Origin: a virus | IMG/VR virus record: IMGVR_UViG_3300049825_000054 | Coordinates: 1 to 49,078 of that record | Direction: 5' to 3' (one strand) | DNA: 49,078 nt | Part shown: positions 2,605 through 15,831 of the stretch, one piece after another | How positions within the stretch are numbered: position 1 is the stretch's first letter | Layout: every line of letters begins with the position of its first letter | Program-made: the position numbers and the translations under genes | Notes under the pieces: model-generated | Database searches by the model: none | Seen by the model: only the letters and a program-made list of their open reading frames with translations | What the model was told of the DNA's origin: nothing

Positions 2605-2817
2605 ATGTTTAGAGGTAAGAAACAGAAATGGCGCGGGTCTAGGTCTGAGTCTGGGTCTGGATCTAAGTCTGGGTCTAGGTCTGGGTCTAGGTCTGGGTCT
2701 GGGTCTTGGTCTGGGTCTGGGTCTTGGTCTTGGTCTGGGTCTGGGTCTGGGTCTTGGTCTATGTCTAGGTCTGGGTCTGGGTTTAGGTCTATGTATTGGT
2801 CTAGGTCTGGAGAATAG
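2605..2817 (+). CDS. Ser-Arg/Ser-Gly repeat protein A, 70 aa
   Basis: This is the first of three tandem paralogs. After a conserved basic head (MFRGKKQKWRGSRS), almost every second residue is Ser, alternating with Gly, Arg, Trp, Glu or Lys, then a conserved segment GFRSMYWS near the end. The DNA is a degenerate 6-bp tandem repeat, ggtctN. The ribosome site caggagcg precedes ATG 2605. The product should be disordered and cationic and could bind nucleic acid or form condensates, which is inference. Its last codons contain the GGAG that serves the next gene. Confidence 0.65.
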   Translation: MFRGKKQKWRGSRSESGSGSKSGSRSGSRSGSGSWSGSGSWSWSGSGSGSWSMSRSGSGFRSMYWSRSGE

Positions 2818-2818
2818 T

Positions 2819-3067
2819 ATGTTTAGAGGTAAGAAACAGAAATGGCGCGGATCTAGGTCTGGGTCTGGGTCTAGGTCTAGGTCTGAGTCTGGGTCTGGGT
2901 CTGGGTCTGAGTTTCGGTCTAGGTCTGGGTCTAGGTCTAGGTCTAGGTCTGGGTCTGGGTCTGGGTCTGGGTCTTGGTCTATGTCTTGGTCTAGGTCTGG
3001 GTTTAGGTCTATGTATTGGTCTGGGTCTGGGTCTGAGTATTGGTCTGGGTCTGGGTCTGGCGAATAG
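2819..3067 (+). CDS. Ser-Arg/Ser-Gly repeat protein B, 82 aa
   Basis: This second tandem paralog starts one base after the previous stop (tagtATG), so translation should be coupled. It has the same MFRGKKQKWRGSRSGSGS head and the same GFRSMYWS segment, but a longer Ser-X tail including SEYWSGSGSGE. The coding strand contains (GGGTCT)x3-GGG at 2951-2971, a canonical G-quadruplex pattern. Length differences from its neighbours look like repeat expansion or contraction rather than point change. Confidence 0.65.
   Translation: MFRGKKQKWRGSRSGSGSRSRSESGSGSGSEFRSRSGSRSRSRSGSGSGSGSWSMSWSRSGFRSMYWSGSGSEYWSGSGSGE
2951..2971 (+). other. G-quadruplex motif in coding strand
   Basis: Four GGG runs are separated by TCT loops at 2951-2953, 2957-2959, 2963-2965 and 2969-2971. 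This fits the canonical G3-N3 quadruplex pattern on the coding strand and therefore in the mRNA. Blocks with three such runs occur near 2737-2752. Whether it folds in the cell is unknown. Confidence 0.55.
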
Positions 3068-3068
3068 T

Positions 3069-3293
3069 ATGTTTAGAGGTAAGAAACAGAAATGGCGCGG
3101 GTCTAGGTCTGGGTCTAGGTCTAGGTCTAGGTCTGGGTCTAGGTCTAGGTCTAGGTCTAGGTCTGGGTCTTGGTCTGAGTTTCGGTCTAGGTCTGGGTCT
3201 GGGTCTGAGTCTGGGTCTTGGTCTATGTCTTGGTCTAGGTCTGGGTTTAGGTCTATGTATTGGTCTAGGTCTGGGTCTAGGTCTGAAAACTGA
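3069..3293 (+). CDS. Ser-Arg/Ser-Gly repeat protein C, 74 aa
   Basis: This third tandem paralog again starts one base after the preceding stop. The head is identical (MFRGKKQKWRGSRSGS), and Arg is denser in its first half than in the other copies. The GFRSMYWS segment is retained and the protein ends RSEN. The ribosome site GGAG seen before copy B is changed to GGCG here, so its translation may depend on termination of copy B. Confidence 0.6.
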   Translation: MFRGKKQKWRGSRSGSRSRSRSGSRSRSRSRSGSWSEFRSRSGSGSESGSWSMSWSRSGFRSMYWSRSGSRSEN

Positions 3294-3330: not shown

Positions 3331-3480
3331 ATGTCAAAGCAACATCATCACAAGTCACTGAACCGCATGGCCATGCTTGATGGTATTACCCGAGTACAGA
3401 AGCTCGGTGAGATGGCGAAGAAGTCGGGCAAGAGGTGGGTTTCTCTTGCCTCGGTTCAACAGGTCTACCACAACCGCTAG
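3331..3480 (+). CDS. Small basic protein, 49 aa
   Basis: ATG 3331 follows AGGAG (3320-3324). The product begins MSKQHHHKSLNRMAMLDGITR and ends QQVYHNR. It is strongly basic with a His run, has no Cys and no membrane segment. Its stop codon overlaps the ribosome site of the lipoprotein gene that follows (taggag). I recognise no family; small basic DNA- or RNA-binding proteins are common at this position, but that is inference. Confidence 0.55.
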   Translation: MSKQHHHKSLNRMAMLDGITRVQKLGEMAKKSGKRWVSLASVQQVYHNR

Positions 3481-3491
3481 GAGTAATTGAC

Positions 3492-3878
3492 ATGAAAAAA
3501 CTTTTAAAGGCATTTCTTGCTACCGTTACCTTCGCTGGGTTAGCTGCTTGCAGCGATGCTGACATCGCATCACACAACCTATCAAAGGCAGCAGATCAGT
3601 TTGAGATTACACGAAGAATTGTTTTTTACAATGGCATCTCAGGCGAGTATATCCTTACTCTTGAAGGATTGTGCTCACTGGGTAATGACGACGAGAAATC
3701 AACTTTGTCTGTCACTTGCAAGACCGGCCCCTCTGCATACAAAAAGCATTTCTTGGGGTTGTCCGACAACGTGACGTACTTTGCCGAGCAAATAGAACCT
3801 TTTGCTGCTGACGTGTACCATTACCGCGTTATTTTTAAGCCAGCAGCTATTATTCCTGACGTTGATTACAAAGGATAA
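3492..3878 (+). CDS. Predicted lipoprotein, 128 aa
   Basis: The start is ATG 3492 with AGGAG overlapping the previous stop. The N-terminus MKKLLKAFLATVTFAGLAAC is a clear type II signal peptide with lipobox L-A-A-C, so the mature protein should be lipidated at Cys20. The remainder has two further Cys (LCSLG and VTCKTG) that could pair, and a beta-rich tail. Lipoproteins early in phage genomes often block superinfection or DNA entry; applying that role here is inference. Confidence 0.7.
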   Translation: MKKLLKAFLATVTFAGLAACSDADIASHNLSKAADQFEITRRIVFYNGISGEYILTLEGLCSLGNDDEKSTLSVTCKTGPSAYKKHFLGLSDNVTYFAEQIEPFAADVYHYRVIFKPAAIIPDVDYKG

Positions 3879-4341: not shown

Positions 4342-4653
4342 ATGCGCTACGCAACTCCTAACGGATCGTACCAACTATCTGAGCTGCCGGGATGCTCTCA
4401 GGTTGTTGTATCTCATGGCGCGTGGGTACTGCCACACCTGCGCAACAAAGGTATCGGCAGCAGCGAGCACGAAGCCAGACTGGCAAAGATGCAAGAGATG
4501 AATTTCGATGTTGGTTTGTGTACGGTTGATGCTGCAAACGTACCACAAATCGCTATTCTGAAAAAATATCATTGGCAGTGTGTCTTTGAGTTTCCATCCA
4601 GCAAGACTGGTAACACTGTCCAGATATGGGTAAACTCTGTACAAGCTAGCTAA
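4342..4653 (+). CDS. Short GNAT-like acetyltransferase, 103 aa
   Basis: The segment LPHLRNKGIGSSEHEARLAKM matches the acetyl-CoA pyrophosphate loop of GNAT enzymes (R-x-x-G-x-G), and the later DAANVPQIAILKKYHWQCVFEF resembles motif B. The protein lacks the first strands of a full GNAT fold and is shorter than the usual 140-180 residues, so it may be a minimal or degenerate enzyme. The start has GGAG upstream. The acceptor is unknown: host proteins, antibiotics-like small molecules or a product of the nearby amidoligase cluster are all possible. Confidence 0.55.
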   Translation: MRYATPNGSYQLSELPGCSQVVVSHGAWVLPHLRNKGIGSSEHEARLAKMQEMNFDVGLCTVDAANVPQIAILKKYHWQCVFEFPSSKTGNTVQIWVNSVQAS

Positions 4654-4792: not shown

Positions 4793-5767
4793 ATGCGAAT
4801 TGTAGACAATATTAATGAAGCACTGACGCTGCCCGGCAACACTATGCAGGAGAGTAGTGTTGCTAATTTTACAAACTTCCTTGACAAGAAGTTTTCAGGA
4901 AGTCCTGTAGAATTCTGCTATAACACGATTAGTGCATCGGCTGATTCCAAGGGGAATGTTAAGTACCACCCTTCATTCTCTCAGATACACTACTTCTGCC
5001 TACGTAGTTTCACACCGAACTGCAAAACACCAACAGATGCCGCCTTGATGAAGGTTACGAACAAGTCCGGCAGGCCCAGTATCGTCAAGCAGTTCTACGA
5101 TTACATCACCGGAGACGCCAGCCCATGGGCTTCCTGTCATGGGGATTTTGTGGCTGTACGCCCGGACAAGAATGGTATACCAGAAGCCTATCTGTGGTTC
5201 AATACGGGTGGGGCTTGCAGTCGTTTGGTTATGTCCATGTTGACTGCTATGCGTCTGCACACTTGTTGGGGATTGGATTACGTTTTTGTTAAGCTAGTAG
5301 ACGCTGGGTTTACTCCAGAAGAAGCTATCCTTCTGTCTACTAACTTTAGCTGGGCCGGTCAAACCTTGACTACTTCAAATGGCCCTCCGGGGATGTTTTC
5401 TGAAGATGTACACAAAATTTTATCTTTGTCTAAACTAGGTGTGTCAAGGACAGACATGCCTTTCCTGACAAATTACAGCCCATCAGGGTTCAAGCCTTTG
5501 TTTGGTAAGAAACCATCTTTCTCAGGCCAGTCACTCAAAGCTGGGCAGTCTCCACAGCCTAACAGCTTCATTTGGAACACTGATGGAGTGGAGGTGAATG
5601 CAGACAATCTGGACAAATCCAGCAAGGAGTATAAATCTGCAAAAATCAAGATCGTTCCTTCTTTGAAGGCCTTTGAATGGCACATCAATGACGTTCAGAG
5701 TATGTCAGCCGCCTATGTCTCAGAGGTCAAGGACAAGCTTCATAACAACCACATACTGGAAATTTAA
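4793..5767 (+). CDS. Uncharacterised protein at head of amidoligase cluster, 324 aa
   Basis: TTAGGAG precedes ATG 4793. I recognise no family. The middle carries a Cys/His-rich stretch (SPWASCHGDFVAVRPDKNG and GACSRLVMSMLTAMRLHTCW). The later part is rich in Ser, Lys and Phe. Its stop overlaps the ATG of the class I amidotransferase (TAATG), so it is co-translated with the ligase cluster. It could be a structural or carrier partner, a regulatory subunit or the substrate; there is no signal peptide or membrane segment. The association is firm, the role unknown. Confidence 0.7.
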   Translation: MRIVDNINEALTLPGNTMQESSVANFTNFLDKKFSGSPVEFCYNTISASADSKGNVKYHPSFSQIHYFCLRSFTPNCKTPTDAALMKVTNKSGRPSIVKQFYDYITGDASPWASCHGDFVAVRPDKNGIPEAYLWFNTGGACSRLVMSMLTAMRLHTCWGLDYVFVKLVDAGFTPEEAILLSTNFSWAGQTLTTSNGPPGMFSEDVHKILSLSKLGVSRTDMPFLTNYSPSGFKPLFGKKPSFSGQSLKAGQSPQPNSFIWNTDGVEVNADNLDKSSKEYKSAKIKIVPSLKAFEWHINDVQSMSAAYVSEVKDKLHNNHILEI

Positions 5768-6396
5768 TGAAAAAGAAGTTTAGCACAGTCGGAGTCATAT
5801 CTCCAACAGATGGAGCTGAAAGAATATTTACCCAAGAAAGGGGTTTTCTTACTATAAAAATCACGCAAAATGTTTTTATCCCTACGAATAAAAACCTGTT
5901 TGATTACCTAGTATTCTGCGGAGGCAGTGATGTATCCCCTGAGTACTATGGCCAGACACAGCACCCACAGACTGCCTGCAACCCTCCAAGGGATAGATGG
6001 GAGGCAGAGCTATTCAAGTTCTATAGGCACGTGCCAAAGGTGGGTATTTGCAGGGGTGCGCAATTCCTTTGCGCCTTGAATGGAGGCAGCCTGTATCAGG
6101 ATATAGGAAAGGGGCATAATTTACCACATTCTGTTACTGATATAGATACTGACAAACAATACAGGGTCACGTCAGACCACCATCAAGCGTGTATTCCACT
6201 TCCTAGATGGAAGATTATCGCAGAAGGTCGTGTTGAAACGGCGGAGACAGACAAAAATAAGTTTAAAAATGTTTCCTTCCCGGAAGCGTTTTATATCCCA
6301 GACGATGGTAGCTTATGTGTCCAGTTCCACCCGGAATGGGGTATGCCATCCTGTGAAGACTATTTCTTTGAACTTTTTGAAAGGTATATGCGCTAA
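5767..6396 (+). CDS. Class I glutamine amidotransferase (peptidase C26-like), 209 aa
   Basis: The nucleophile elbow VGICRGAQF places the catalytic Cys at residue 95, and VQFHPEW near the end supplies His188 and Glu190, completing the triad. An N-terminal LVFCGGSDVSPEYYG segment matches the gamma-glutamyl hydrolase/PuuD-like branch. At 209 residues it is slightly shorter than typical C26 enzymes (about 230-250). It should hydrolyse gamma-glutamyl bonds or release ammonia from glutamine. Its overlaps with both neighbours tie it to the ligase cluster, where it may trim or recycle gamma-glutamyl products; that role is inference. Confidence 0.85.
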   Translation: MKKKFSTVGVISPTDGAERIFTQERGFLTIKITQNVFIPTNKNLFDYLVFCGGSDVSPEYYGQTQHPQTACNPPRDRWEAELFKFYRHVPKVGICRGAQFLCALNGGSLYQDIGKGHNLPHSVTDIDTDKQYRVTSDHHQACIPLPRWKIIAEGRVETAETDKNKFKNVSFPEAFYIPDDGSLCVQFHPEWGMPSCEDYFFELFERYMR

Positions 6397-7829
6397 TGTG
6401 CGGTCAATCCGGCCTTATGATTACTAATACTACGTCAGTTTCGGAGCTTGAAATTGCCAGACGCCTGATGATACTGAACGTCTTGCGGGGAGAGCATAGT
6501 GCGGGCATGTTTGATTATATGCCTCACGCTGAAAAGAATAAACAGTTTAGTTTTACAAAATCCGTAGAACACCCATTTGACTTTATACTCGATGTCTTTG
6601 ATGCCCAATCAAAGGGGCGGTGGAAAACGTCAAGACCTGTCATACTGGCTACGCATTGCCGGTATGCCACAAAAGGTGAGCTGAAAACAGAAAATGCTCA
6701 CCCGTTTCGTCATGGCAAGATTATCGGTATGCACAACGGAACAATAAAAAAGGAATTTTTGTCGTCTGAGAAGTTTAAGACAGATTCCGAGGCGTTCTTC
6801 TTTAACCTAGATAGGTATGGGTTGGAAGAGTCTCTGAAAGAAATTCAGAACAAGGAAGCAGCCTACGCATTTGTTTGGTTGAACACAAAAGAAAGGACAC
6901 TGAATTTTATTCGTAACAGTAAGCGTCCTCTTTCTTACACTATGCTATACAACTCCAAGTTTGGGTTGGTTTGGTCATCTGAGGCAGCGCATCTAAAGGT
7001 CGGCATATCCAGCGTAAACTCTTCTATGGCGTCCTCAAATCCGACTTCTTTTAAAGAGATGGTGCATTATTCTATTTCAGTAGACGCAAAAGAGATAGCG
7101 TTTAATGAAGTAGATTATACTCACTTGAAGGATACTGAATTTACCCATTTACTGGGTGCGGGCTACTATGATTCTGTATGGGATAGTAGTAGTAATTCTT
7201 GGGTGCCCAAGGGGACAGTACAAGCAGTTTCGGATAGTCTAGCTCCAGAGGAGGTCTTAAAGCGTTATGCAAAATCTGCAAGCCCCATTCAAACAGAACT
7301 TTCAAACAAATGGGATATTGCTTTTAGCGGATTTTATAGTGCTGCTGCTCTCCAGCATATTAAATACCTTAGAGAAAGGGTTGCCAATGGGAAAAAGGAA
7401 AAGGAAAAGGAAGCTTACAAGAATGCCGATTCTAAGCCCTATGAAAAGAAAATTGTTACAGCTACCATGGATAGCGCCAGTAACGGAGGAAAAGATGACG
7501 TCATACCTTTCAATGATGCTGTCCGACTTGGAGATAGTGCGGGAGAAGAGGTTTTCATGTTCGGCCCGTATTATGCAAAAGAAGCTTCCAGAGCGCGATA
7601 CGTACAATTGCTGAGAGAGGGTTGTCAGAACTGCATGGCTAAATCAAGGATTAACGAGGCAATAGTATGGCTGAATGATAAAGAGTATGTATGTCATGAG
7701 TGTGCTAAGAGTATTATAGAGGACTCAAACCACTGGTTTTTCAACGGTGGTGGCATTCCAAAATATGTTCAGGCGCGCATCAAGGCTGATTATGAAACTC
7801 TTTTTGTTCAGCCAGCTCAATTGAATTAG
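6396..7829 (+). CDS. Class II glutamine amidotransferase with C-terminal zinc ribbon, 477 aa
   Basis: The protein begins MCGQSGLM, so Met removal would expose the Ntn-type catalytic Cys2. THCRYATKGE (87-95) and GMHNGTI (111-117) are the glutamine-binding and oxyanion segments typical of GATase II. A Cys-x2-Cys pair at 410/413 and a second at 433/436 form a zinc ribbon not usual in simple GATase II proteins. The start is at ATG 6396, overlapping the class I enzyme's stop. It should release ammonia from glutamine for a partner synthetase; the adjacent ATP-grasp and amidoligases are the obvious candidates. Confidence 0.85.
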   Translation: MCGQSGLMITNTTSVSELEIARRLMILNVLRGEHSAGMFDYMPHAEKNKQFSFTKSVEHPFDFILDVFDAQSKGRWKTSRPVILATHCRYATKGELKTENAHPFRHGKIIGMHNGTIKKEFLSSEKFKTDSEAFFFNLDRYGLEESLKEIQNKEAAYAFVWLNTKERTLNFIRNSKRPLSYTMLYNSKFGLVWSSEAAHLKVGISSVNSSMASSNPTSFKEMVHYSISVDAKEIAFNEVDYTHLKDTEFTHLLGAGYYDSVWDSSSNSWVPKGTVQAVSDSLAPEEVLKRYAKSASPIQTELSNKWDIAFSGFYSAAALQHIKYLRERVANGKKEKEKEAYKNADSKPYEKKIVTATMDSASNGGKDDVIPFNDAVRLGDSAGEEVFMFGPYYAKEASRARYVQLLREGCQNCMAKSRINEAIVWLNDKEYVCHECAKSIIEDSNHWFFNGGGIPKYVQARIKADYETLFVQPAQLN

Positions 7830-7838
7830 GACAGTACA

Positions 7839-8687
7839 ATGAAATACAAAGCTTTTATTCTTTGCCGCCCTGACTTTGGCGGTGATTCCGTCTTTACTAT
7901 TTCTGGGTACATGAAAAATAATGTGCCAGTAATATTGAATAAGGAGGACACTCCGCCTCAAGATGCTACACTCTGTATAAGATGGGGCTGCACAGGAAGT
8001 GTACCACAGAAGAGTGTCTTGAACACAGCTAAATCAATTCATCTAGGCTTTAATAAGCCACTGTTTAGGTCTATGCTTTGGGAGCATGGACTGGCTCCTA
8101 AATACTTTCAGCATGGTGAAGCTGTTTATGAGCAGGATTTGCCTGTTCTAGTGAGGCCAGAGCACCACACACAAGGCAAAGATGCCTATCTCTGCAAGAC
8201 GCTTGAGCAAATTGGTCCTGCTGTTGCCCAGTGTGGGCATAACTACTATGTTTCGAAGTATATTGAAAAGATACAAGAGTTCCGTGTCTTTGTTATTCAG
8301 GGGCGCGTAGTATTTATTATGGAGAAATTTCCTAATAGCAAAAATGATATAGCTTGGGATTTTTCTCCAGACTCTGAATGGGGGAATGTGAAATGGAGTA
8401 AGTGGAATAGTAATGTTCTTTCTACGGCTGTGAATTCTATGAAAATTTCTGGCCTAGACTTTGGCGGTGTTGACGTTGTAGTTGACGAGTCTGGTGCTGC
8501 TTATGCTCTGGAAATTAATTCCGCTGCCGGAGTGTACGGAAATTACATGGCTAATTGTGTTGCAAAAGCGTTCGATTGGATTATCGACAGCGGAGATAAA
8601 AGTCATATACCAGTGTGTAACAAAAAGACAAACTACCCTTATTTAAACTTTATTCATCCTGCAATCGAAAGCGGAGCTTACGTATGA
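7839..8687 (+). CDS. ATP-grasp ligase, 282 aa
   Basis: The overall pattern fits an ATP-grasp enzyme: an N-terminal pre-ATP-grasp part (residues about 1-80), LPVLVRPEHHTQGKDAYLCKT as an ATP-binding lysine/loop region, EFRVFVIQGRVVFIMEK and the metal-binding ALEINSAAGVYGNY, with Glu225 and Asn227. Such enzymes make carboxylate-amine bonds through an acyl-phosphate. The ribosome site is weak (aggacagtacaATG), 9 bases after the class II amidotransferase. It overlaps the type 2 amidoligase by ATGA. The substrate is not deducible; an amino acid or peptide carboxylate is likely. Confidence 0.8.
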   Translation: MKYKAFILCRPDFGGDSVFTISGYMKNNVPVILNKEDTPPQDATLCIRWGCTGSVPQKSVLNTAKSIHLGFNKPLFRSMLWEHGLAPKYFQHGEAVYEQDLPVLVRPEHHTQGKDAYLCKTLEQIGPAVAQCGHNYYVSKYIEKIQEFRVFVIQGRVVFIMEKFPNSKNDIAWDFSPDSEWGNVKWSKWNSNVLSTAVNSMKISGLDFGGVDVVVDESGAAYALEINSAAGVYGNYMANCVAKAFDWIIDSGDKSHIPVCNKKTNYPYLNFIHPAIESGAYV

Positions 8688-9481
8688 AAAAGAAAATACT
8701 GATCGGGTGTGATCCAGAGCTGTTTGTATTCAGCGGTGATACACCAGTATCAGCACACGACCTGCTGCCCGGAACTAAGCACAACCCTTGCACAGTCCCA
8801 AAGGGTGCTGTTCAGGTTGATGGTGTTGCCGCTGAGTTCAACATCACTCCTGCCTCTACCGGACGGGAGTTTGTAGCCAGTATCAGGAATGTAGTGCGCA
8901 TTCTTGATAAGATGGTGAAAGTGAAAAATCCTAACTTTGTTCTAAGAGCGGTGCCTAGTGTAACCTTTGACAAAGACTATTTTGCTAACCTTCCTGCGGA
9001 TGCTAAGGCGTTAGGCTGCGAGCCAGACTATAATGCCTATACGTTGGACGTTAATAAGAAGCCAGAGACTACGAAGCCGTTCAGAACTGGTTCCGGGCAT
9101 ATTCACATTGGCTGGGAGGGTTGTAACCAAGACGACCTGTCATACATCGACACTTGCACTGGGCTTGTAAAGGAGTTGGATTTCGGGCTTTACAGGCAAA
9201 GCCTAGCTTGGGACAGCGACGAGACAAGGATGGAGCTGTACGGTCAGCCGGGAGCTTTCAGGTTTAAGCCTTACGGACTTGAATACCGTGTATTGTCCAA
9301 TAGGTGGCTGATAAACGAAGGGCTTACGCGCTTCGTCTATGATGCAACAAAAAACATAACTGCTAGATATTTAGCTGGAGAGAGGTTCTCTGCACTGTTT
9401 GATAAGCAGGAAAAGACTTTGACGGAATTCTTAGCCGCCAAGCGGCTACCTGTTGTGCAGGATTACTATAAGGAGGTTTGA
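8684..9481 (+). CDS. Amidoligase, phiEco32-like COOH-NH2 ligase type 2, 265 aa
   Basis: The N-terminus KILIGCDPELFVF with Glu12, the segment VQVDGVAAEFNIT with Glu51, GSGHIHIGW with His139/His141 and GLEYRVLSNRW are the signature blocks of the phage COOH-NH2 ligase family related to glutamine synthetase. These glutamates and histidines should bind Mg-ATP and the substrate carboxylate. It starts in an ATGA overlap with the ATP-grasp gene and ends in a TGATG overlap with the next. It probably forms an amide or isopeptide bond; the target is unknown. Confidence 0.88.
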   Translation: MKKKILIGCDPELFVFSGDTPVSAHDLLPGTKHNPCTVPKGAVQVDGVAAEFNITPASTGREFVASIRNVVRILDKMVKVKNPNFVLRAVPSVTFDKDYFANLPADAKALGCEPDYNAYTLDVNKKPETTKPFRTGSGHIHIGWEGCNQDDLSYIDTCTGLVKELDFGLYRQSLAWDSDETRMELYGQPGAFRFKPYGLEYRVLSNRWLINEGLTRFVYDATKNITARYLAGERFSALFDKQEKTLTEFLAAKRLPVVQDYYKEV

Positions 9482-10188
9482 TGCCAACCGCGAAAAAGTC
9501 AAAAAAGATGCCCTACAATTACTTCGAGCGCCAGACCAGCCGGGCTAGAAAATTTGTTCTACCCGGTGATCTAGAAAATGGCAGGTACCTTACAGACCAA
9601 GATGTGTGCAACCGACTGAATAATACTATTGCCTTTTGGAAGGGTATCCCTGTTCGCACAATCCCTGTGGGGCAAAATAGAGTAAGAGTGTGTGATTTTA
9701 TTTCCAAAGTGGGTATTGACTATAAAACTTTTGACGTTATAGACGCCAATTCACCAGACTTGTCAACAGAAATGTTAGATGACATTGGCTATATTAACAG
9801 AGGTGATCAGGCGCTGTATATCACAAGAGCGCACTGGAGAAAAACATTTGCTGGCATTTCGCCAGAAAGTTGCTTTTTTACTCCTGCTGGAAGCAGCGAT
9901 AGGATTGGATGTGGTAATTGGCTTCCTTCACAGGAACTCTACAATGCTTTACTAAACATATATCCTACACTTTCCGAGTGTATAGACGCTACGAAAAATC
10001 GGCGCGGCACATCAAAAGCTTTTACAAAATCTTTTGCAGTGTATGAGGGGTATACGCTGTACCATGAAACCTACCTAGTAGGCTACATTAGTAAAGAAGC
10101 AGAAGGTAACGCAAAAGTGGTTTTGTGTGAAGGTTTCAAAGACTCTGTATTCTCGATGTCTTTGAGACAGCTAGGAATTGAGGTTTAA
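9481..10188 (+). CDS. Uncharacterised protein between two amidoligases, 235 aa
   Basis: AGGAGG (9471-9476) sets the start at ATG 9481; a TTG at 9478 is too close. I recognise no family. The protein has a basic N-terminus (MPTAKKSKKMPYNYFERQTS), a central beta-rich part and a C-terminal segment ending VLCEGFKDSVFSMSLRQLGIEV. No membrane segments are visible. Its position between the two amidoligases, with 1-base spacing on each side, suggests a dedicated partner, possibly a specificity factor or a substrate. Confidence 0.7.
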   Translation: MPTAKKSKKMPYNYFERQTSRARKFVLPGDLENGRYLTDQDVCNRLNNTIAFWKGIPVRTIPVGQNRVRVCDFISKVGIDYKTFDVIDANSPDLSTEMLDDIGYINRGDQALYITRAHWRKTFAGISPESCFFTPAGSSDRIGCGNWLPSQELYNALLNIYPTLSECIDATKNRRGTSKAFTKSFAVYEGYTLYHETYLVGYISKEAEGNAKVVLCEGFKDSVFSMSLRQLGIEV

Positions 10189-10189
10189 A

Positions 10190-11539
10190 ATGAATATTAC
10201 AGAACATGAAATATCATTTAATTATAGATTCTACAGCAAGCTGGCGAACTCTACCAGTATCAAAAATAAGAAGAACTATGATTACTATGTGGGTATTGAG
10301 TTTGAGAATGAGTTAAAGCATGAGGTAGATCTTTGTTTACCCAACGGATGGACTGCGCACACTGAAAACTCTTTGAAATACAACGGCTATGAATTCGTAT
10401 CAAGAAAGGGTCTTCGTAAGAGCGCTGTAGAAAAGTCAGTAAAAGAACTTTTTGATAGTGTAACGTTGTCTGCTGGAGGAAAGTTTCAGCCAACGAATTC
10501 AATACGGACCAGTACGCACTTTCATTTTAACCAGTCTGAAAATTCGCTAATAGACACTATTCTATTTTCTACAGTATACTGGATCATGGAACCTTTTATC
10601 CAATATTTTTGTGGTCCACACCGGCAATACAATCACTTTTGCCTCCGACTGAATGACTCAAAAATACAGAAGCTATGGCTAGCTGACTCTATCAGATCCC
10701 GCCAACTCTTCTATGATGGCGTCCTAGGAGATAAGAATATCCGTTACGGAAGCTGGAACCTTCAGAGCATGGCCAAATTTCGTACTCTTGAATCCCGTCT
10801 AATGCGGGGGGTAAGCAACCCAGATGATGCCATTATATGGTTCAATGTTTTGGATAAAATAAAAGCATTTGCAGAATCTTTTCCGAGTACTATTGAGCTT
10901 CAAGATTTCTTTTTGAATTCTGTATCTGCTGAAGAGTTTCCTGTAAAGGTGCTGGGTGAGGAACTTTTTTCCTACCTTGAAGAGTATTTCCCCACCGATC
11001 TTTCCATAAGTAACGAAATAAGAAAAGGCTATTTAAATGTACTTGTAATTTTCAAAGAAATGTCTATCTACACTGTAGACACTCTTGAAAAGATAGAAAA
11101 AACTATGCAAAAAATTACACAGAAAGAAGAAGATAAATCCCTGAAGGAAATTGCGCAAGCTACAAAGACCGCCGGGGTGGTTTCTTCTACGTTAAAAAAG
11201 AAGAAACTTACTTCAAGTAGTCTAAATCCTGCAAATGCAGGTGTTGATTTTGCCACCCTGAACGCTCAACAAGTAATTAACACTACATGGAATCCAGCAA
11301 ACTCTTCTGCAACTGTAGCTACTAAAGCTCCTTCTATAGAGCTTTTTTCAAACTGCCCATGTGGGAAAAATAGCAAATGTAAAAAATTGAATTTTGCTAC
11401 AGCATTCTGCTTTGGCTGTGGAAAATACGTTGATTTAAGCGCGCATTCTAACAAGGCTAGTCAAACCTCACCACATCCAGAAGAGCCTGTTACTTTTCCA
11501 TTCCCTCCAAAACCATGGTCTGAAGAAGAGGAATTCTAA
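10190..11539 (+). CDS. Second amidoligase (Amidoligase_2-like) with zinc ribbon, 449 aa
   Basis: YYVGIEFENEL (33-42) is the glutamine-synthetase-type metal-binding strand. GWTAHTENSLKYNGYEFVS, STHFHFN with His110/His112 and RTLESRLMRG supply the other ligase blocks. The C-terminus holds a Cys cluster (Cys389, 391, 397, 407, 410) consistent with a zinc ribbon, then an acidic tail. GAGG upstream favours ATG 10190 over an in-frame TTG at 10178. It differs from the 8684 ligase, so the cluster has two different amide-forming enzymes. Its zinc ribbon parallels that of the class II amidotransferase. Confidence 0.82.
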   Translation: MNITEHEISFNYRFYSKLANSTSIKNKKNYDYYVGIEFENELKHEVDLCLPNGWTAHTENSLKYNGYEFVSRKGLRKSAVEKSVKELFDSVTLSAGGKFQPTNSIRTSTHFHFNQSENSLIDTILFSTVYWIMEPFIQYFCGPHRQYNHFCLRLNDSKIQKLWLADSIRSRQLFYDGVLGDKNIRYGSWNLQSMAKFRTLESRLMRGVSNPDDAIIWFNVLDKIKAFAESFPSTIELQDFFLNSVSAEEFPVKVLGEELFSYLEEYFPTDLSISNEIRKGYLNVLVIFKEMSIYTVDTLEKIEKTMQKITQKEEDKSLKEIAQATKTAGVVSSTLKKKKLTSSSLNPANAGVDFATLNAQQVINTTWNPANSSATVATKAPSIELFSNCPCGKNSKCKKLNFATAFCFGCGKYVDLSAHSNKASQTSPHPEEPVTFPFPPKPWSEEEEF

Positions 11540-15150: not shown

Positions 15151-15382
15151 GGAGTTAAAAACGGAGCAGGACAAAAAGGTATTTCACGCCGTAATCACTT
15201 ATACAGAAATAGTTAGCTTTGACGCTATAGGAACTTCAGAAGAAGAAATCAGGGATAACCTGAATAAGCAGTTTGGCGCTCTAGATGGCTTTGCAATTAC
15301 CGAGATTAAGCAAATCTCTGACTCTGTAGCCACCTACACAGCCACATTGCAGAGCGCCTACGAAAAACCAACACTGAATTGA
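15116..15382 (+). CDS. Small protein, 88 aa, overlapping polymerase end
   Basis: The frame from ATG 15116 overlaps the polymerase by 35 bases. No ribosome site precedes that ATG, while an AAGGAG at 15149-15154 has no in-frame standard start just after it, so the true start is uncertain. The residues from about KVFHAVITYTEIVSFDAIGT onward show an alternating pattern and end SAYEKPTLN. Family unknown; it sits between polymerase and SSB. Confidence 0.5.
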   Translation: MPSVATGLKPIKELKTEQDKKVFHAVITYTEIVSFDAIGTSEEEIRDNLNKQFGALDGFAITEIKQISDSVATYTATLQSAYEKPTLN

Positions 15383-15393
15383 AAGGAAATAAA

Positions 15394-15831
15394 TTGAGCA
15401 CACAAACACTATATCTCGAAGGACTTGCCAAGTGGGCCATGGTATACCCCGGTCAGGAAGATACCAAGTATGGAAAGAAATGCAAGATCGACCTTTACTT
15501 TACAGATGAAAGTTTGCAATCGTTTAAGCTCTCAGGAAGCCGTAAGAAGCTTCGTTCGGACGATCAGGGTATCTATACTACCTTTACACGCAGTATAGAC
15601 GAAATCAATCCGCAGACAGAAGAACCTTATGGCTACCCCAAGGTGGTTTCTGGCGAAGGAGCAGACATCAAGCCCTTTGACAAGATCATTGGTAATGGAA
15701 GTAAGGTTGTTTTGAAGGTAGTTGTCTACGACTCCAAGTTTGGTCGTGGTACTCGTTTGGAAGGTGTTCGAGTACTTGAGCATGTACCATACGAAGCTGC
15801 GCAGGAGGACGACTCTCCCTACGCATTCTAA
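15394..15831 (+). CDS. Single-stranded DNA-binding protein, T7 gp2.5-like, 145 aa
   Basis: AAAGGA (15382-15387) with a 6-nt spacer selects TTG 15394, giving MSTQTLYLEGLAKWAMVYPG. The size, beta-rich body (KCKIDLYFTDESL, SKVVLKVVVYDSKFGRGTRLEGVRVLEHV) and the acidic, aromatic C-terminal tail EDDSPYAF fit the gp2.5 class, whose tail contacts polymerase and helicase. Its position directly after the polymerase supports this. It should coat single-stranded DNA at the replication fork. Confidence 0.8.
   Translation: MSTQTLYLEGLAKWAMVYPGQEDTKYGKKCKIDLYFTDESLQSFKLSGSRKKLRSDDQGIYTTFTRSIDEINPQTEEPYGYPKVVSGEGADIKPFDKIIGNGSKVVLKVVVYDSKFGRGTRLEGVRVLEHVPYEAAQEDDSPYAF

Follow-up and report, generated by a model that had tools for sequence, protein, structure and literature searches.

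The 49,078-nucleotide stretch analyzed here (positions 1 to 49,078 of IMG/VR virus record IMGVR_UViG_3300049825_000054, hereafter the window) represents the 49-kb genome of a podovirus-like phage. Seven open reading frames (ORFs) on its + strand, g1 to g7, overlap or nearly abut one another at positions 4793-11539, and are followed by a primase/helicase gene (11708) and then a DNA polymerase gene (13291). The first-pass annotation, with which these coordinates agree, had described an amide-bond synthesis cluster of two amidoligases, two amidotransferases, an ATP-grasp enzyme and two unknown proteins. We found that the cluster is a real, complete and conserved member of the phiEco32-type amidoligase cassette. 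The cassette itself is already known; new here are two conserved partner proteins, the likely C26-type nature of g2, and a rule by which Peptidase C26 and gamma-glutamyl cyclotransferase (GGCT) enzymes stand in for each other. None of the seven proteins contains a transmembrane-like stretch (19-residue hydropathy maximum 1.24), and all look soluble. PADLOC defense models gave no matches to any of them at E<=0.01.

Enzymes and partner proteins of the cluster

Two of the genes encode amidoligases. The product of g5 (8684..9481, + strand; 265 aa) is a phiEco32-type COOH-NH2 ligase type 2, matching COOH-NH2_lig (PF14395) with 26.6 bits (cut-off 25) and phrog_3815 with E=3e-71. The second amidoligase, g7 (10190..11539, + strand; about 449 aa), combines an Amidoligase_2-like core with a long C-terminal extension; it matched phrog_7469 ("amidoligase") with E=1.4e-32 and nothing significantly in Pfam, where PF12224 itself failed to match. 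Catalytic residues were audited in about 85 relatives per family and in alignments with six phage relatives, and proved to be present and almost invariant. In g5, the DxE, E51, HxH, R182 and ExR positions were retained in 90 of 90 relatives and Asn53 in 87 of 90, and in g7, ExExE, HxH, R149 and ExR were retained in 85 of 85 (numbering from TTG 10178). Ribosome-binding-site context favors ATG 10190 over TTG 10178 as the g7 start. As to the glutamine-synthetase fold ascribed to both ligases in the first-pass annotation, the amidoligase families were borne out, and the fold is predicted from family assignment; profile searches with g5 and g7 against solved structures returned no significant match.

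The g7 extension carries a Cys4 ribbon-like motif (CPCG..CFGC) and an acidic end, ...PWSEEEEF. Acidic ends with a final Phe, similar to the tips of single-stranded DNA-binding (SSB) proteins, occurred in 13 of 85 g7 relatives under a strict definition and in 2 of 408 background ORFs. We considered the SSB-like tail as a replisome-recruitment signal and dropped the idea, because the SSB proteins of these phages have tails that do not follow those of g7. The window also encodes, at 15379-15831, what we read as an SSB-like protein with the acidic tail ...EDDSPYAF and no PHROG match; relatives of it were present in 17 of 50 cassette-bearing genomes.

The g3 product (6396..7829, + strand; 477 aa) is a class II glutamine amidotransferase (GATase), matching PF13522 (GATase_6) with 42.3 bits (cut-off 27; E=9e-11) and phrog_4736 with E=3e-49. 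Its catalytic residue Cys2 was correctly named at first pass and is kept in all 66 members aligned there, and R89, the HNG motif and D130 are kept in 85 of 85. The N-terminal domains of GlmS and PurF match g3 residues ~1-190 only, and the fused synthase domain of those enzymes (SIS or PRT) is absent from g3. The protein ends instead in a CxxC..CxxC zinc ribbon (7623..7703, + strand; Cys410, 413, 433 and 436), whose four cysteines are invariant wherever the region could be aligned (45-46 members). This architecture, a glutaminase domain joined to a ribbon rather than to a synthase, suggests that g3 works with separate partner ligases. The ATP-grasp enzyme of the cluster, g4 (7839..8687, + strand; 282 aa), is a RimK-like ligase that matched PF08443 (RimK) with 29.2 bits (cut-off 21; E=8e-7), and whose profile matched alpha-L-glutamate ligases/RimK (E=6e-9 and 2e-7) and cyanophycin synthetase. 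Glu147, Arg149, Asp212, Glu225 and Asn227 are invariant in all aligned g4 sequences, and Lys144 is kept in 76 of 88. Scores against the related R2K_2 and R2K_3 Pfam models fell below gathering (23.9 vs 26.2 and 23.7 vs 26.3 bits).

The class I GATase residues Cys95, His188 and Glu190 had been recognized correctly in g2 (5767..6396, + strand; 209 aa) and are kept in 77 of 77 homologues. The protein matched Peptidase_C26 (PF07722) with 65.9 bits (cut-off 20.5; E=5.6e-18), and its best solved relatives are Lin1909, 7d4r ("probable glutamine amidotransferase") and PuuD (6vtv), with GMP synthase and carbamoyl-phosphate synthase subunits ranking lower. Because it is closer to free-standing gamma-glutamyl hydrolases than to ammonia-donating subunits, g2 is better read as a C26-type gamma-glutamyl hydrolase than as an ammonia-channelling class I amidotransferase. 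The two amidotransferases first proposed are better described as a class II glutaminase, g3, and a gamma-glutamyl hydrolase, g2; it is more likely that one of the pair feeds and the other trims.

The two proteins first listed as unknown turned out to belong to conserved cassette families. g1 (4793..5767, + strand; 324 aa) lies directly 5' of the C26 gene and has a core with Cys69, Arg154 and His207. Direct searches of Pfam, NCBIfam, PHROG and phage genomes (tblastn) returned no match to it, and it shares 42% identity with its homologue at locus L008. It was matched, however, by the profile of a 55-member family that other loci encode 5' of C26 (E=1.5e-8; hhalign probability 97%), and we regard it from this profile match as a divergent member of that family just upstream of g2. 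The family was found in 66 of 87 loci, with Cys69 and Arg154 invariant and His207 kept in 96% of members; its profile matches several named phages, but not phiEco32 or LUZ24. The AlphaFold model of g1 was poor (mean predicted local distance difference test score, pLDDT, of 67), and a fold search from it gave nothing usable.

The second of these proteins, g6 (9481..10188, + strand; 235 aa), is encoded between the two ligases and matched phrog_11055, a PHROG without function, with E=8e-17; ribosome-binding-site context favors its start at ATG 9481 over TTG 9478. Its AlphaFold model (mean pLDDT 84.7) shows a small Tudor/KOW-like barrel (residues ~38-127) followed by a C-terminal domain. The fold search gave no convincing match, returning small barrels only (best Z 5.1, Foldseek E>0.2), and matches to eIF5A/EF-P-like folds were too weak to use. 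Profile searches with g1 and g6 against solved structures likewise found nothing significant. g6 may have a scaffold or substrate-binding role. The constant position of g6 between the ligases, and the location of the g1 family directly 5' of C26, identify both as components of the cassette, newly recognized here.

Conservation and distribution of the cassette

Single-sequence scans of viral genomes with g5, g6 and g1 returned nothing or one locus, and alignment-based scans were needed to recover the families. Among 80 viral loci fetched with the g5 profile alone, all of metagenomic origin and some of them fragments, g6 was present in 79, g7 in 79, g3 in 78, g4 in 77 and g2 in 72, a degree of clustering far beyond chance. 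All 78 loci with the three genes keep the order g5>g6>g7, and the gaps between them sum to a median of -22 bases. The layout seen most often is g2>g3>g5>g6>g7>g4 (56 loci), and the window and loci L008 and L010 have g4 between g3 and g5. The first-pass annotation had named two findings that would speak against its proposal, loss of catalytic residues on full alignment and occurrence of the families mostly in unrelated contexts. The residues are kept in ~85 relatives, and the families clearly occur together, each of g3 to g7 being found in 77-80 of the 80 loci; its proposal of an amide-bond-forming cluster related to that of phiEco32 is thus borne out by families, complete catalytic residues and neighborhood alike.

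A tblastn search with g5 matched 315 phage records, whose hosts on record are mostly Gram-negative bacteria. No g5 relatives were found on plasmids, and among 84,980 prokaryotic species genomes they were limited to 13 contigs, all from metagenome-assembled bins. The set is complete or mostly so in phages CW02, T2S1, KZY1, DL54, IME271, O4, phiEco32, SU10, LUZ24, RIO-1, Vp_R1, LAh_8, RHph_I3_11 and others. It is standard in Zobellviridae, Bruynoghevirus (45 kb), Kuravirus, Grimontviridae and further groups, so the view that such a gene content is rich for a 49-kb phage did not survive the comparison. At loci L009 and L011, the cassettes contain two g5-like ligases and many interspersed paralogous small ORFs of 90-130 aa.

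The cassettes of phiEco32, LUZ24 and RIO-1 likewise hold a COOH-NH2 ligase, a small protein, an amidoligase, a class II GATase and an ATP-grasp gene side by side, and those of LUZ24 and RIO-1 adjoin primase/helicase genes as in the window. These phages differ in having GGCT and no C26, whereas the window phage has C26 and no GGCT, and in placing the ATP-grasp gene after the amidoligase rather than between the class II GATase and the COOH-NH2 ligase; in addition, the window has g1, for which the profile search gave no counterpart in phiEco32 or LUZ24. Salinivibrio phage CW02 and other Zobellviridae (PA11, O4, TC6, CVT22) share C26, the class II GATase, both ligases, the small partner and the ATP-grasp enzyme, and g5 is 39-49% identical to Zobellviridae members. 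These differ in the position of g4, in more small insert genes in CW02, and in the additional presence of GGCT in some (CW02, KZY1).

The cassette has been called a peptidoglycan modification cassette in RIO-1-like, phiEco32, 7-11, PA11, tf, LUZ24, PaP3 and CW02 phages (Duhaime 2017; PMC5498523), and the name of a seven-gene cassette of this kind goes with Iyer 2009 and Hardies 2013 as well. An idea of superinfection exclusion is traced to Iyer 2009 as cited in PMC10580990. Our literature search found no experiments on the cassette. In the phiEco32-like phage SU10, however, mass spectrometry identified the ATP-grasp, GATase and YtfP/GGCT proteins, together with gp86, among the early products (PMC4281155), and the cassette is therefore expressed. 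GenBank lists SU10 gp86 as the amidoligase, whereas the published mass of 23.3 kDa (PMC4281155) better fits the neighboring g6 homologue (205 aa); numbering in the paper and in GenBank may be shifted by one.

Several features lie 5' of the cassette in the window. Three tandem ORFs at 2605-3293 each start with MFRGKKQKWRGSRS and continue in Ser-Arg/Ser-Gly repeats, resembling either low-complexity genes that have been duplicated or a region of tandem repeats. The ORF at 3435-3878 matched phrog_478 (E=1e-50), labelled recombination directionality factor, a label that may be wrong; no integrase was noticed in the genome. Just 5' of the cassette, at 4342-4653, is a small GNAT-like ORF that matched Acetyltransf_1 with E=0.01, below the Pfam cut-off.

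Exchange of C26 and GGCT enzymes

C26 enzymes hydrolyze gamma-glutamyl bonds, and GGCT enzymes remove gamma-glutamyl groups as 5-oxoproline. In a first set of 51 cassette-bearing genomes, C26 was present in 47 and GGCT (PF06094) in 17, and all four genomes lacking C26 had GGCT (p=0.0095). The second set comprised 18 diverse named phages, mostly picked across taxa from the g5 match list after the pattern had been seen in the first set, and with some annotations (GGCT in LUZ24 and RIO-1) visible before the test. Here GGCT was present in 15 and C26 in four (p=0.0049): all 14 phages without C26 had GGCT, and all three without GGCT had C26. Across both sets, none of 69 genomes lacks both enzymes (37 with C26 only, 18 with GGCT only, 14 with both; Fisher p=2.7e-8, a value inflated by the relatedness of the genomes). 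When the named phages were collapsed into 15 groups of our own definition, p was 0.026, which is the fairer figure.

As a control, 26 contigs were fetched by means of a related primase. The three that carry g5 all have C26, while among the 23 without g5, C26 above cut-off was found in none and GGCT in two. Taken together, 73 of 73 cassette-bearing genomes have C26 and/or GGCT, compared with 2 of the 23 control contigs that lack g5. The control set includes many fragments; restricting it to g5-free contigs of >=40 kb gives 1 of 7. C26 and GGCT thus substitute for each other in cassette phages, a new regularity which, like the families, their catalytic residues, and the obligatory co-occurrence and order of the genes, was established computationally. 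Since both eraser families act on gamma-glutamyl bonds and one of them is always present, the gamma-glutamyl bond is probably central to the chemistry of the cassette. Most simply, a gamma-glutamyl bond formed by the cassette would have to be undone, trimmed or corrected afterwards.

A candidate pathway and its possible targets

On balance, we lean towards a soluble, early-expressed multi-enzyme pathway that forms amide bonds from glutamine or glutamate and includes an obligatory gamma-glutamyl-removing step. The proteins would act in one shared pathway, whose bond type and step order we infer as follows. g3 would hydrolyze glutamine, supplying ammonia or glutamate; g5, g7 and g4 would make one amide or isopeptide bond after another at the expense of ATP, including at least one gamma-glutamyl bond, with g6 holding together or guiding g5 and g7. 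g2 would then hydrolyze a gamma-glutamyl bond and so finish the product, or recycle or correct it, a step that GGCT would take over in phages without C26. Support comes from g4, which is closest to glutamate-adding ATP-grasp ligases, and from the C26 relatives of g2, which are gamma-glutamyl hydrolases. The gamma-glutamyl or peptide-like product suggested at first pass is consistent with this evidence.

Several observations weigh against such a pathway. None of the cassette members has a known substrate, product or activity. The C26/GGCT substitution is correlational, among genomes related by descent, and both families have members that are not necessarily gamma-glutamyl-active. g2 passes no specific NCBIfam equivalog, scoring 24.7 vs 266 bits for PuuD (gamma-glutamyl-gamma-aminobutyrate hydrolase) and 32.6 vs 250 bits for gamma-glutamyl-CDP-amidate hydrolase. 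In addition, the genome G075 (L200) has a partial set with a class II GATase and neither g5 nor g7, and G056 (L139) and G057 (L140) have GGCT beside the primase without g5. All three may represent a reduced or an ancestral state of the cassette.

Among acceptors for the proposed pathway, we rank a cell-wall precursor first, followed by small amines, then proteins, and then DNA. Stem peptides hold gamma-D-Glu linkages, and wall chemistry is known to involve class II GATases and ATP-grasp enzymes. The cassette could place unusual peptide linkages on peptidoglycan precursors, altering the wall to exclude other phages or to prepare lysis, and this is our leading, if tentative, choice. This target goes back to Iyer 2009 and Hardies 2013, as later papers cite them, and is repeated in PMC5498523, PMC10580990 and PMC11945000; the mostly Gram-negative hosts agree with it. 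Against it, the literature search yielded no experiment on such a target, soluble-looking proteins could reach cytosolic precursors only, and the cassette adjoins replication genes rather than lysis genes.

By analogy with PuuA and PuuD, the ligases might instead attach a gamma-glutamyl group to a polyamine or other small amine, which C26 or GGCT would free again, tuning polyamine or amino-acid pools for DNA packaging and replication. g2 resembles PuuD and related hydrolases, having a triad identical to that of the C26-type hydrolase of the bacterial Puu/Spu gamma-glutamyl-polyamine pathway, and the replacement of C26 by GGCT fits gamma-glutamyl-amine chemistry. Moreover, gp9 of the cassette-bearing phage LUZ24 scored as interacting with the host gamma-glutamylpolyamine synthetase SpuB/PauA2 in an unconfirmed yeast two-hybrid result (PMC4635203), but gp9 is not a cassette gene. 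The cassette differs from the Puu/Spu pathway in lacking an oxidase and a PuuA-type ligase (a Pfam search of it gave no PuuA-type glutamine synthetase domain) and in g2 missing the PuuD cut-off, and two ligases plus an ATP-grasp enzyme are more than such a role needs. We consider a small-amine acceptor rather unlikely.

A role in protein tagging appears a shade less likely still. Here the ligases would attach glutamate or a different amino acid to a protein of the host or the phage, in the manner of RimK, with C26 or GGCT as editor. Glutamine-synthetase-type amidoligases usually act on small molecules, and we found no conserved acceptor protein or invariant lysine/glutamate tail, g6 having neither residue invariant. 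What favors tagging is the RimK/alpha-L-glutamate-ligase-like nature of g4, the unusually acidic g7 tails, and the proposal that related R2K ATP-grasp enzymes modify proteins in phage-host conflict (PMC4431377).

Finally, an amide-bearing base modification could shield phage DNA from restriction, which we judge improbable. Gordonclarkvirinae that carry the cassette have been described as "remarkably resistant" to restriction, without any known modification pathway (PMC11990801), although the BASEL authors invoke a dCTP deaminase; phiEco32 (L106), SU10 (L107) and Bas92 (L131) are cassette carriers of this group. The DNA amide ligase CmoY of phage S-B43 (PMC12783734) is also a phage amide-bond maker and acts on DNA; it differs in being asparagine-synthetase-like and acting with CmoA/CmoX. 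Cassettes adjoin replication genes, and some g7 tails resemble SSB-type acidic tips, although g7 tails and the SSB tails encoded by one and the same phage do not match. Many restriction enzymes cut the DNA of LUZ24-like phages with the cassette, that of U17 being cut by 11 of 16 enzymes and that of tf by RsaI, HpaI, EcoRV, SmaI and HaeIII, and no base enzyme installing a carboxylate or amine was noticed in the window. Equally doubtful is a genome- or nucleotide-directed pathway in which phage nucleotides, or a replication protein, would receive a gamma-glutamyl group or another amide adduct, edited by C26 or GGCT; if true, it would explain both the restriction resistance of kuraviruses and the usual position of the cassette beside replication genes.

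Carriers of the cassette number in the hundreds among sequenced phages and include therapeutic Pseudomonas phages as well as Escherichia coli phages able to grow on K-12; ideas about its target have been guesswork since 2009. g1 and g6 extend the parts list for any reconstitution. A gamma-glutamyl eraser is constantly present, as one of two unrelated enzymes, and this brings the chemistry of the cassette down to something directly testable.

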